Of a stretch of DNA of 46,177 bases, positions 17,182 through 45,704 are shown one piece after another (position 1 is the stretch's first letter; each line of letters opens with the position of its first letter). Where the stretch lies: contig JAAYQX010000019.1 of NCBI GenBank assembly GCA_012519085.1, positions 1 through 46,177 of the forward strand, written 5' to 3'. A model generated the notes under the pieces. It was given only the letters and a program-made list of their open reading frames with translations, was not told the origin of the DNA and searched no databases. The stretch comes from Clostridiaceae bacterium (lineage in GTDB: Bacteria; Bacillota; Clostridia; Saccharofermentanales; DTU023). The position numbers and the translations under genes are program-made.

Positions 17182-18907
17182 TTTCAGCTGCGGGTCCCAT
17201 CTGCAACTCGGCTATCTCCCGATAGGGCAGGCAGGAAGCAAGTAGTTCATCATGAGTGCCCAGAGCCAGCAGCGATCCTTTATCCAGAAACATGATCCGA
17301 TCCGCCTGTCTGACAGAACTGATGCGCTGAGCAATGATTATCTGCGCTGTCCGCGGGAAATGAAGCCGTAGTGCCGCGCGCAGCTTCTGATCGGTCTGAA
17401 AGTCCAGAGCACTGGAGGCATCATCCAAGATCAGTATCTCCGGCCTTCCGGCAAAAGCGCGGCTTAATAGCAATCTCTGTTTTTGGCCGCCGGACAGATT
17501 AACCCCTTTGGCAGCCAACTCAAAAGTAAGCCCATCCTTATCAGAGATAAAATCGGCCGTTTGAGCAATTTTGCCGGCACGGCGGATCCTGTCTTCACCA
17601 AGCCCGCGTCCGAAATCAATATTCTCCGCAATGCTCCCGGCGAAGAGAAAATCGTTCTGGAACACGCAGCCGAATAAACTGCGCAACTGTGCCGGAGGAA
17701 TCCGCCGCAGATCAATGCCTCTGACTAAAATCTCACCTGATGTCAGCTCATATTGCCGCAGCAAAAGCCTGATAACAGTACTTTTGCCGGAGCCGGTGGC
17801 CCCCATAATTCCTAGTGTTTCGCCCGGGAACAGTCGAAAGCTGATCTGATCCAGATCGTTTCTCTTTCCCAGATAGCTGAAGCTGACATTGCGAAATTCC
17901 ACTTCAGGTACTTCCGGATCCGGGTCAGGGAGCTGCTGTATCTGGTCGGCGGCAGCGATCTGATTGGTATCAGCCGGCAACTCTAAAACCTCAGCGATTC
18001 TCTTCTCGGAAGCAACAGCGCGATTATAGATATTGACCATCCTATTCATAGCCATCAGCGAGTTGGTGATCTGAATAAAATATGACAAAAAAGCCATAAC
18101 CGTTCCGGTCTGAATCAGCCCGTCATTGACTAGGCGGGCGCCGTAGATCAATACCAAGGCCACTCCGGAAAACAAAATCAGATTCACGGACGGCGCCATC
18201 TTGGCAATCTGGTCAATAGCCTCTATTTCAGCCTTCTGCACTTCCTCATTGGCCACAGCAAATCGCCCCTGTTCGTACTCGGTCTTATCCAGAGCCTTCG
18301 ACACCTTGATACCACGGATATTTTCTCTGATTACCTGCACCATATCATCGATCTTTTGCTGTACCCAGCGAAAGAGCGGAACAGCCTGGCGGAAAACTGT
18401 CCGTACCACCAAGACCAAAGGAATCACCAGCGCCAGCAGCACCAAAGACAGCCGCGGACTGAGGATCAGACAGAAGATGACACCGCCCCCAAACAGCATA
18501 ATAGCGCGGATACCCATCCGCAACGTGGCACTGAGCAGCCGATGCACAATATATGTATCCGAGGTCAGGCGGGATTCAAGGGAAGAGATTCCCAGCTTGT
18601 CGATCTGCCGGGCGGAAAGAGTAAGCGAACGTGCGAACAGATCCTGACGGATACTCCGGATCGTCAGCGAAGCAGTCCGGGAGGCCATTCGATTAGCTAC
18701 AATATTGAGCAGCCAGGCGCCGAAAGAACACAGCACCATAATTACGCCCCATATAATAATTTCCCCGCTATTACCGACCGGCACAACGGCATTGACAATA
18801 TAGGCCAAGATAGCCGGCAAAACGACTTCCAACAGTGTGCCTGTCATCTTGATAACGGCATTCCAGACAATCCGGATACGATATGGTTTGACATAAGTCT
18901 TCAGCAT
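17174..18907 (-). CDS. ABC exporter subunit (TM287-like, degenerate-site half of heterodimer)
   Basis: Walker A GATGSGKST; LSGGQKQRLLLSRAF; Walker B LILDDASSALD (Asp for catalytic Glu); IIAQRISS (Gln for H-loop His). 8-bp overlap with partner. Confidence 0.92.
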   Translation of the reverse strand: MLKTYVKPYRIRIVWNAVIKMTGTLLEVVLPAILAYIVNAVVPVGNSGEIIIWGVIMVLCSFGAWLLNIVANRMASRTASLTIRSIRQDLFARSLTLSARQIDKLGISSLESRLTSDTYIVHRLLSATLRMGIRAIMLFGGGVIFCLILSPRLSLVLLALVIPLVLVVRTVFRQAVPLFRWVQQKIDDMVQVIRENIRGIKVSKALDKTEYEQGRFAVANEEVQKAEIEAIDQIAKMAPSVNLILFSGVALVLIYGARLVNDGLIQTGTVMAFLSYFIQITNSLMAMNRMVNIYNRAVASEKRIAEVLELPADTNQIAAADQIQQLPDPDPEVPEVEFRNVSFSYLGKRNDLDQISFRLFPGETLGIMGATGSGKSTVIRLLLRQYELTSGEILVRGIDLRRIPPAQLRSLFGCVFQNDFLFAGSIAENIDFGRGLGEDRIRRAGKIAQTADFISDKDGLTFELAAKGVNLSGGQKQRLLLSRAFAGRPEILILDDASSALDFQTDQKLRAALRLHFPRTAQIIIAQRISSVRQADRIMFLDKGSLLALGTHDELLASCLPYREIAELQMGPAAEIA

Positions 18908-42397: not shown

Positions 42398-42421
42398 GGG
42401 GAGCAAATAGCTCCCCTTTTT
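42398..42421 (+). terminator. Intrinsic terminator between M29-like gene and racemase
   Basis: ggggagc-aaata-gctcccc followed by TTTTT. Confidence 0.85.
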
Positions 42422-42444
42422 AATCTTATCGGGAGGCCAACTAA

Positions 42445-43188
42445 ATGAAAAATCGCATCTTGCATTTAAAGCCCGTGGCATATAGTGATCTCAATGATGA
42501 AATCCTGGCCTATCTGAACAAATATAAGTCGGATAATACCGAGATTGAAATCAGGAATTTGTCCCGCGGTCCGTCACATCTGGAATATTTATACTATCAG
42601 GCGGTTGCAGAGACTGAAATTCTCCGAGAGATCAGACAGGCTGAAAGAGACGGCTTTGACGCGGCAATGATTAGCTGCTTTGATGATCCGGGGCTGTTTA
42701 CCGCTAGGGAGATCAGTCAGAATTTATTAGTTACGGCAGCTGCAGAATCCAGTGTCTATTTAGCCGCCACATTAGGTGATCGTTTTTCGGTGATTGTAGG
42801 CCGGGATAAATGGATTCCACAGATGCGGGATCTGATTGCCCGCTATGGGCTGAAAGATAAACTGGCATCTTTTCGGAGCATTAGCTTAGGGGTTTTGGAA
42901 CTGCATCGCGATAAGCGGGAAACTGCCTCCAGAATCAGGCACGCAATTGAAAACGCCCTTGTTCTGGACAAGGCTGAAGTAATAATCTTGGGTTGTACGA
43001 TGCAGTACGGCTTTTTCGAAATACTGCAAGAGGAATACAAAGTCCCGATTATTGACTCGATGCTGGCTAATCTCAAATATACCGAATACTTGCTGGAGGT
43101 TAAACAGAAAACCGGTTGGACTTTCAGCCGCAGGGGCATGTATGAACGTCCACCCGATAAGGAAATGGCGGATTGGGGCCTGACATAG
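42445..43188 (+). CDS. Asp/Glu (hydantoin) racemase family protein
   Basis: Two expected catalytic-Cys contexts: ISCFDDPGLFTARE and VIILGCTMQYGFFE. Confidence 0.82.
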   Translation: MKNRILHLKPVAYSDLNDEILAYLNKYKSDNTEIEIRNLSRGPSHLEYLYYQAVAETEILREIRQAERDGFDAAMISCFDDPGLFTAREISQNLLVTAAAESSVYLAATLGDRFSVIVGRDKWIPQMRDLIARYGLKDKLASFRSISLGVLELHRDKRETASRIRHAIENALVLDKAEVIILGCTMQYGFFEILQEEYKVPIIDSMLANLKYTEYLLEVKQKTGWTFSRRGMYERPPDKEMADWGLT

Positions 43189-43225: not shown

Positions 43226-43324
43226 TTTGTTTTAGCCGAAGGCGCTCGCGAGCTGTACTGCTGACCTGACTGTACTGCAGAGGGGTTATCAGTGCGGTTT
43301 GTGAGCGTCTTCGGCAAAAAAGAA
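43226..43324 (+). ncRNA. Long near-perfect hairpin, candidate structured RNA (strand-asymmetric G.U pairs)
   Basis: 43235-43260 pairs with 43290-43315 in 26 uninterrupted bp (6 G.U), one mismatch, then 6 more bp (2 G.U), 3 bp and a 5-nt loop. No U-tract. Confidence 0.55.
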
Positions 43325-43351
43325 ATTAAGTAGTAGGTTTTGGAAAAGGAT

Positions 43352-43540
43352 TTACGGCTTTAATGATGTTACCGGAACAATAAAAATACCTGTCTCAGGA
43401 TCTTTCATTACTGCTTCACAATATCCCACAATTACACACATAAATGCAGGCTTCTTTTTTACATTAGCGTAAAATTTTGCAAGGCTATTTATAGCATCCT
43501 TAATGCCTCTATAGCTCAGTTTAATCTCGAAAGCTGCGTC
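43352..43540 (-). pseudogene. C-terminal remnant of AAA/DUF4143-type ATPase
   Basis: Hand translation: DAAFEIKLSYRGIKDAINSLAKFYANVKKKPAFMCVIVGYCEAVMKDPETGIFIVPVTSLKP*, with in-frame TGA directly upstream and no N-terminal domain. Confidence 0.6.
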
Positions 43541-43543
43541 TCA

Positions 43544-43603
43544 TTGTGCACTTTTCAAGTATTATGTTGTACACTTTTCAGAAATTCGATTGTGCGATTT
43601 TCT
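43544..43603. repeat. Three direct repeats phased at exactly 23 nt
   Basis: ttgtgcacttttca (43544), ttgtacacttttca (43567), ttgtgcgattttct (43590). Confidence 0.8.
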
Positions 43604-43667
43604 TAGAAAAAAGACAGTCGGCAGAAGGAATTAGTGCTAAGGTTAGAGGGGGAGGTTGGTAGAAGAG

Positions 43668-45704
43668 ATGGGTCTGAATGCAATGGATGGCAGAACCAGG
43701 TTAGAACATTATCCGGATGCGAAGAAGAAAAATTTGCTTATCGGCATCGATATGGGCGGGACCAATATTGATGGTGTCGTGATCGACGATGGGGTGCTGA
43801 TAAAATCGGTTAAGCGGAAGGTTGACCGCAGTGACTTTTTCCGCAGCATTTGGGGCTGTCTGCAGGCATTGCTGCAGGGGGTCGAGAGGGAGCGGATCGG
43901 GCGGATCAATCTGAGCACGACGATTTCTACCAATGCGATTGTTGAGAAGCAGTTGTCCGGCGTGGGCTTGATTTTACAGACCGGACCGGGACTGAAGTGG
44001 GAGTTTGATGAGCTGGAGGATTTTATTACTTATCTGTCCGGCAGTGTTGATCACCGCGGCAGTGTGGTTCAGGGATTGGATCAGGAGGAGTTGGCGGAGA
44101 TTAGGGCTCGCTATGCCGAGCAGCCGCCGGAGGCTCTGGCGGTGGTCACCAAGTTTTCCACCCGCAATCCCGAGCCTGAGTTGCAAATCAGGGATTTCTT
44201 CGCCGGGGAGTTTGAGGATATTACATTGGGACACAGCCTGTCGGGCAAATTGAATTTTCCCCGGCGGGTGCAGACTGCCTATCTGAATGCTGCTGTGGGC
44301 AGGACATTCCGATCTTTTGTGTCCGATCTGCAGCAGGCGCTGGAGCGTGAGCGAATTGCGGCTTCGGTCTATATCCTCAAAGCAGATGGCGGTACAGTCG
44401 ATCTGGCGGGTGCCTCTGCCAGGCCGGTCGAGTCGATCCTGTCGGGACCGGCGGCCAGCTTCATGGGTATGATGGCGTTGCAGAAGAGTGATGTGCGCCG
44501 TGTGGAGCCGGAGGCGAGGTTGGATTCGGGACCTGGGCTGGAGTTGAAATCGGAGCCGGAGCCGGAACCGGAACCGAATGCAGCACAGCCTAGTGCTTAC
44601 TTGGCCGGCACGGCTGCAGCAGCGCAGAGTGCAGAGCCGGAGGGTAAAGGGGATATGGTGTTGATCGATATCGGCGGCACCACGACCGATCTGTTTTTCC
44701 TCGTTGACGGCGTTCCCGTCTTTGAGCCGCAGGGCATTGAGATTGATGGACGCAAAACCCTGGTGCGAGCGATCTTCAGCACTTCGATCGGGCTGGGCGG
44801 CGATAGTCATGTTCGCAGCGAAGGCGGTATTTTGCAGATCGGCCCTCGCCGTCTGGACAATGCTGTGGCCTATGGCGGCAAATATTTGACACCGACTGAT
44901 GCACTGGTTTACCTGGGCGCACTGTCCGGTGACTATCCGGAGCTAAGTAAGGCAGCTTTAGAAGAGTTGGCGGTTTACTGTGAAAACATGTCGGAAAATG
45001 AAAGTAAAGCTGTCGCAAGCAACGGGCAGACAACCCGTTCGGAGTGCAATCCGGGACATGAAAATAGTGAAGAAGCGCAAGGTGATACTCTAGCAGAAGT
45101 TGTGAGACGCAATGGTCAGGCAGCAGAGCGGCTGGCGCGTGAGATTATCGATCTGATGTGCCGGACGATCGCTGAGAAAATACGTGCCACTCTGACTAGG
45201 CTCAATGCCAGTCCTGTTTATACCATTAAGGAACTTTTGACGGATAGAAAGATCCGACCGCAGGCTGTCATGCTCATCGGCGGTCCGGCACAGGCACTGG
45301 CTCCATTTCTGGCTCAGGTGCTGGGTCTGCCGGTCACTGTGCCCCAATCCGCGGAAATCGCCAATGCTATCGGGGCAGCACTGGCCAGACCGACACAGGA
45401 GATTAATCTGCTGGCTGATACGGAGCGGGGCAGATTGTCCATACCTGAGTTAGCGATCTACGAGCCGGTGGGTAAAAATTACAATCTGGCTCAGGCGAAG
45501 CGCAGGGCTTTGACAGAGGTCAAAGGCACAGGTCAGTCGCTGGGTCTGGCTGAGGAGCAGATCGAGGCTGAGGTTGTCGAAGCCAGCAGCTTCAATATGA
45601 TTAGCGGCTGGTATCAAGTGGACAGAAACATCCGGGTCAAAGCTCAGATCAAGCCCGGACTGCTGACCGAGCTGTACCCGGGTCCAGGCTGCGGTGCAGA
45701 TTAA
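43668..45704 (+). CDS. HyuA-type hydantoinase/oxoprolinase (ATP-dependent)
   Basis: LLIGIDMGGTNIDGVVIDDG; INLSTTISTNAIVEKQ; VESILSGPAASFMGMMAL; MVLIDIGGTTTDLFFLVDG. Start could also be TTG 43656. Confidence 0.88.
   Translation: MGLNAMDGRTRLEHYPDAKKKNLLIGIDMGGTNIDGVVIDDGVLIKSVKRKVDRSDFFRSIWGCLQALLQGVERERIGRINLSTTISTNAIVEKQLSGVGLILQTGPGLKWEFDELEDFITYLSGSVDHRGSVVQGLDQEELAEIRARYAEQPPEALAVVTKFSTRNPEPELQIRDFFAGEFEDITLGHSLSGKLNFPRRVQTAYLNAAVGRTFRSFVSDLQQALERERIAASVYILKADGGTVDLAGASARPVESILSGPAASFMGMMALQKSDVRRVEPEARLDSGPGLELKSEPEPEPEPNAAQPSAYLAGTAAAAQSAEPEGKGDMVLIDIGGTTTDLFFLVDGVPVFEPQGIEIDGRKTLVRAIFSTSIGLGGDSHVRSEGGILQIGPRRLDNAVAYGGKYLTPTDALVYLGALSGDYPELSKAALEELAVYCENMSENESKAVASNGQTTRSECNPGHENSEEAQGDTLAEVVRRNGQAAERLAREIIDLMCRTIAEKIRATLTRLNASPVYTIKELLTDRKIRPQAVMLIGGPAQALAPFLAQVLGLPVTVPQSAEIANAIGAALARPTQEINLLADTERGRLSIPELAIYEPVGKNYNLAQAKRRALTEVKGTGQSLGLAEEQIEAEVVEASSFNMISGWYQVDRNIRVKAQIKPGLLTELYPGPGCGAD

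Follow-up and report, generated by a model that had tools for sequence, protein, structure and literature searches.

One of the described systems closest to the element studied here is the SLS class of stem-loops (Petrillo et al. 2006, PMC1590033), defined by a stem of at least 12 bp, a loop of 5-100 nt, tolerance of G-U pairs and a stability greater than expected by chance. Such stable elements occur preferentially in the 50 bp that follow stop codons, and a part in the stability or turnover of mRNA has been proposed for them (PMC1590033). Repeats of the NEMIS and ERIC type form RNA hairpins that are cotranscribed with neighbouring genes (PMC1590033), and REPs are high-copy palindromes of 20-40 bp that carry an unpaired GTAG or CGTC as a tag (PMC3733652). 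In Staphylococcus aureus, RNase III is described as typically binding long hairpins (PMC3386247), and in E. coli stem-loop stability has been linked with PNPase stopping at 3' ends (PMC10667835).

The window, a 46,177-nucleotide stretch of a Clostridiaceae genome assembly (contig JAAYQX010000019.1), carries on the + strand, at 43235-43315, a hairpin of 36 pairs in the RNA model, of which 26 are uninterrupted (5' arm 43235-43260, 3' arm 43290-43315). Checked pair by pair, the layout proposed in the first-pass annotation holds: going inward, the 26 pairs are followed by a C/T mismatch (43261/43289), 6 pairs, 2 mismatches and 3 pairs, and an extra U.G pair can close the terminal loop, reducing it from 5 to 3 nt. 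All eight non-Watson-Crick pairs among the 26 + 6 stem pairs are, as claimed, G.U when read as + strand RNA (8/8), with no A.C; the U.G at the loop closure is a ninth. The proposed outer T/A pairs, out to 43226/43324, do exist, but they are interrupted and form a weak extension between the T-rich 5' flank (43226-43234, + strand), itself poorly conserved, and the A-rich 3' flank AAAAAAGAA (43316-43324, + strand). A direct repeat is also present within the hairpin, as CTGTACTGCTGA (43253-43264) and CTGTACTGCAGA (43270-43281).

Folding of both strands, the check that the annotation had called for, bore out the expected asymmetry. The + strand RNA of 43226-43324 reaches -62.4 kcal/mol (z -10.3; shuffles -29.3 +/- 3.2, 0/200 as good), versus -31.0 kcal/mol (z -3.7) for the - strand, the gap being narrower with DNA parameters (-26.3 on the + strand versus -17.9 on the - strand). 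Against a background sampled from its own genome (20 stretches, 363 kb, both strands), the hairpin ranks first by stability among 24,084 folded windows of 110 nt, and its ungapped stem score is 34, compared with 23 for the runner-up, which lies in a low-complexity repeat. These data demonstrate that the hairpin is real and not a chance stem. Another long stable structure, with -51.0 kcal/mol in 110 nt, was noticed on the - strand of a separate locus (L062, ~18500-18690), where it contains the repeated unit GATCGACG(C/G)TAT...GTCGATCCGACTTTCTCAGATG.

Pfam matches confirmed the assigned position of the hairpin between a racemase gene of the Asp/Glu/hydantoin racemase family (42445-43188, + strand; PF01177, E 1.3e-33) and the hydantoinase/oxoprolinase gene hyuA (43668-45704, + strand; PF01968 and PF05378). 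The neighbouring + strand genes encode two ABC-transporter type ATP-binding proteins (by sequence), an M20 peptidase and an M29-like peptidase, and the row continues with the racemase, HyuA and a histone-deacetylase-like protein. Translation of hyuA probably starts at ATG 43668, which is preceded by GGGGGAGG, rather than at the alternative TTG 43656; its counterpart in the sister species described below has its ATG at 2211 of locus L004. The M29-like peptidase and racemase genes are themselves separated by a terminator-like hairpin, GGGGAGCAAATAGCTCCCC then TTTTT (42398-42425), which sits immediately 5' of the racemase ribosome-binding site, is kept in the sister species and may represent attenuation inside the operon.

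How does this element compare with the described classes? It shares with SLSs an intergenic location, a stem longer than 12 bp that includes G-U pairs, co-directional genes and a place close behind a stop codon (PMC1590033). The 26 uninterrupted pairs, the z of -10.3 and a loop of 5 nt (counting the last U.G as unpaired) fall within the SLS definition, and so does its location downstream of a coding sequence, 46 nt past the racemase stop codon (52 nt in the ortholog), within the preferred ~50 bp or close to it. It differs in having none of the A-tract/U-tract terminator flanks that are usual in low-GC Firmicutes (PMC1590033), in being outside any repeat family and in a length and stability that are exceptional within its genome. 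It resembles NEMIS and ERIC in being one long imperfect hairpin of similar size that is likely part of a transcript, but those form multi-copy families (PMC1590033), whereas the present hairpin occurs once and is not flanked by direct repeats. With REPs, also described as GTAG and CGTC palindromes, it shares the nature of an extragenic palindrome near a gene 3' end and a proposed role in mRNA stabilisation (PMC3733652); by contrast, it is single copy, no Y1/RAYT-type transposase was found, and the foot of its stem bears no GTAG/CGTC tag. Finally, like RNase III hairpins in mRNAs, for example that of cspA in S. aureus, it is a long hairpin in an untranslated region and an expected double-stranded RNA substrate (PMC3386247), although the cspA hairpin lies in a 5' UTR and the one described here, with its predicted cleavage, is intercistronic.

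A single copy was detected in the genome by BLAST, by a covariance model (next match E 1.84) and by a 3-mismatch pattern, so that the search for further copies proposed in the annotation returned one copy only. No flanking direct repeat of at least 7 nt surrounds the hairpin, and no Y1/RAYT transposase (PF01797) is encoded in the 92%-complete genome. These results speak against the alternative of a MITE or REP raised at first reading. The proposed Rfam comparison gave no match either: with Rfam 15 at gathering score, only 5S and LSU rRNA were matched in the window. Nor was the hairpin matched in phages, plasmids or IMG/VR.

DNA searches covered 148 relatives and, across the order, 188 genomes, and a covariance model was run on 98 relatives; a single ortholog emerged, in a Clostridiales bacterium MAG (G002, JAAZGH010000034.1; L004:2041-2121). 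It occupies the matching location between the racemase stop codon and hyuA, and is identical at 67/81 positions (83%) without gaps, including 23/26 in the 5' arm and 21/26 in the 3' arm of the 26-pair stem. Among the loci fetched for racemase and HyuA relatives in the family, no comparable hairpin was seen; in another genome, G001, the sequence behind a racemase relative is unrelated and contains no hairpin of this kind. Within the genomes searched, the hairpin is lineage-specific, present in two sister species.

Several other candidates were set aside. An 82-bp palindrome in L007/L032 is situated at the end of a contig and resembles an assembly artefact, and a 23-nt match in G002 (C184, E 0.009) is a short separate palindrome. 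Matches to the outer stem pattern, CGAAGGCG...CGYCTTCG, were not counted as relatives because the two octamers are frequent (about 118 and 157 per genome), common enough for ~0.3 pairs per genome by chance; one such match, in G003, falls inside an open reading frame resembling threonine synthase. A 68-nt match in the same genome as the hairpin (G000:C41:16830-16897, L070:1501-1568), CGAAGGCG...CGCCTTCG, forms an intergenic stem that lies between the end of a gyrA-like gene and the next gene and is 82% identical in G002; we regard this gyrA-adjacent element as a weak lead for a relative. The 9-mer AGCGTCTTC is enriched between genes (7 versus 0.5 expected), but it was rejected as a family mark, no wider sequence being common to its sites.

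The two copies differ at 14/81 hairpin positions (17%), versus 177/588 (30%) at 4-fold degenerate sites of the four flanking genes (p = 0.006), and the hairpin is therefore more conserved than near-neutral sites. Of the 14 hairpin differences, twelve affect stem pairs: in nine a G.U step preserves a standard + strand pair, in three the pair is lost, and none of the pairs is changed on both sides, in a comparison of two sequences. The ten stem-pair transitions comprise nine of the G.U type and one A.C (p = 0.011); these are a few small binomial tests carried out post hoc. In a neutral simulation started from a Watson-Crick-repaired ancestor, an assumption made with no outgroup carrying the hairpin, 0.6% of runs retained as much pairing as was observed.

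The G.U asymmetry resides almost wholly in the window copy, whose stem has nine G.U pairs and no A.C. The sister stem contains two G.U pairs together with three broken ones (one A.C and two others), and folds alike on both strands (-49.9 versus -49.2). Moreover, transitions between the copies (n = 12) run 11:1 towards T/G in the window copy, and three of these lie outside G.U pairs, including the unpaired positions 43289 and 43282. The 4-fold sites of the same strand have no such skew (48:61; Fisher p = 0.002), which makes a general strand bias unlikely; general C-to-T/A-to-G mutation of the + strand is not supported as the cause. A local strand-biased mutation, by strand-specific deamination of C and A, could nevertheless give the same G.U pattern. 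Hence the first-pass claim that a G.U-only pattern denotes + strand RNA stands in part. The 9/10 transitions of the G.U type and the divergence below that of 4-fold sites speak for it, but it is weakened by an ortholog with no strand preference, by A.C and broken pairs without double-sided change, and by the T/G skew. This one-ortholog comparison lends moderate support to + strand RNA pairing.

Taken together, the hairpin is real and rare, and probably under constraint. The reading that we favour, at roughly even chances, is that of a single-copy, lineage-specific intercistronic stem-loop acting in the + strand mRNA. Transcription of the peptide-transporter, peptidase and racemase genes would run on towards hyuA, and the RNA would fold into a stem of ~36 pairs shortly past the racemase stop codon. 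This stem would be a substrate of RNase III or a block to 3'-to-5' exonucleases, and the upstream message would be stabilised or split from that of hyuA. The proposal fits a + strand stem of very high stability that follows a stop codon and has no terminator tail, in a genome that encodes RNase III (PF14622, E 1.3e-38). It is supported by the fold, the rarity, the conserved place in two species and the slower-than-neutral divergence. Against it stand the limitation to two sequences with no double-sided compensatory change, and the sister copy, with no strand preference and three broken pairs. A further difficulty is the variable distance to hyuA, about 350 nt in the window versus 90 nt in the ortholog, as is the racemase relative of G001 that has no hairpin. 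The distance is not conserved because ~260 bp, absent from the ortholog by sequence comparison, intervene in the window (43350-43612, ends approximate). On the - strand, 43352-43537 of this insertion reads AAFEIKLSYRGIKDAINSLAKFY...ETGIFIVPVTS, which may resemble the C-terminal end of a DUF4143-type ATPase, but no Pfam match exceeded the cut-off. The insertion also contains three similar short stretches at 43543-43605, TTGTGCACTTTTCA, TTGTACACTTTTCA and TTGTGCGATTTTCT, like the repeated ends of some insertion sequences.

The same observations have to be weighed against a non-functional inverted repeat, which we consider rather unlikely. A near-perfect palindrome, inherited from the common ancestor of the two species and born by inverted duplication, template switching or from a lost mobile element, would now be decaying, with chance or a local strand-biased mutation as the source of its G.U excess. 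Its presence in two sister species only, the three broken pairs of the sister copy and the 11:1 skew, with three transitions outside G.U pairs, are consistent with such decay, and hairpin-templated correction can maintain near-perfect palindromes without selection. The slower divergence than at 4-fold sites (p = 0.006), the missing skew at these same-strand sites (48:61, p = 0.002) and the lack of further copies or of a flanking direct repeat argue against it. An integron attC site was also considered and rejected, R'/R'' core motifs not being seen at the stem ends by inspection.

Could the hairpin be a regulatory RNA itself, either a small hairpin RNA derived from the + strand transcript or a leader that regulates hyuA? 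The long near-perfect + strand stem, upstream of hyuA in both species, is compatible with this possibility, which nonetheless seems improbable: Rfam has no match, promoter-like sites are not commoner than in shuffled sequence, the distance to hyuA differs, and HyuA relatives in the fetched loci of the family lack a comparable hairpin. A dedicated + strand hairpin RNA, cut from the racemase-hyuA transcript, selected for RNA-only pairing (G.U tolerated, A.C excluded) and acting in this lineage as a small double-stranded regulatory RNA, would be very improbable. As for an atypical terminator or pause site that dispenses with a U-tract, a very stable hairpin 46-52 nt past a stop codon would suit it. 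We hold it to be quite improbable, since the stem is far longer than those of intrinsic terminators and is absent from the terminator scan output, and the gene row has an ordinary terminator-like site elsewhere (42398-42416 then TTTTT). In agreement with the first-pass view that this is no standard terminator, the 3' arm runs into AAAAAAG and not T; instead of the U-tract that follows the G+C-rich hairpin of an intrinsic terminator, the sequence 3' of the stem is A-rich on either strand, and the ortholog has TACAAAAAA at the position of the A-rich flank. The scan, which extended to 43800, reported no terminator-like site between the racemase and hyuA genes.

Judged from its sequence, the hairpin likely belongs to a known class, the intercistronic stem-loops, as a new lineage-specific member that may serve as an RNase III substrate or a barrier to 3' exonucleases. 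The comparison also exposes a limit of inferring RNA function from the G.U versus A.C asymmetry of one genome, the window copy being strongly RNA-like and the sister copy not. If the proposal is true, this uncultured clostridial lineage would possess a clean single-copy intercistronic RNA hairpin that separates two genes of a cluster for peptide and cyclic-amide use.
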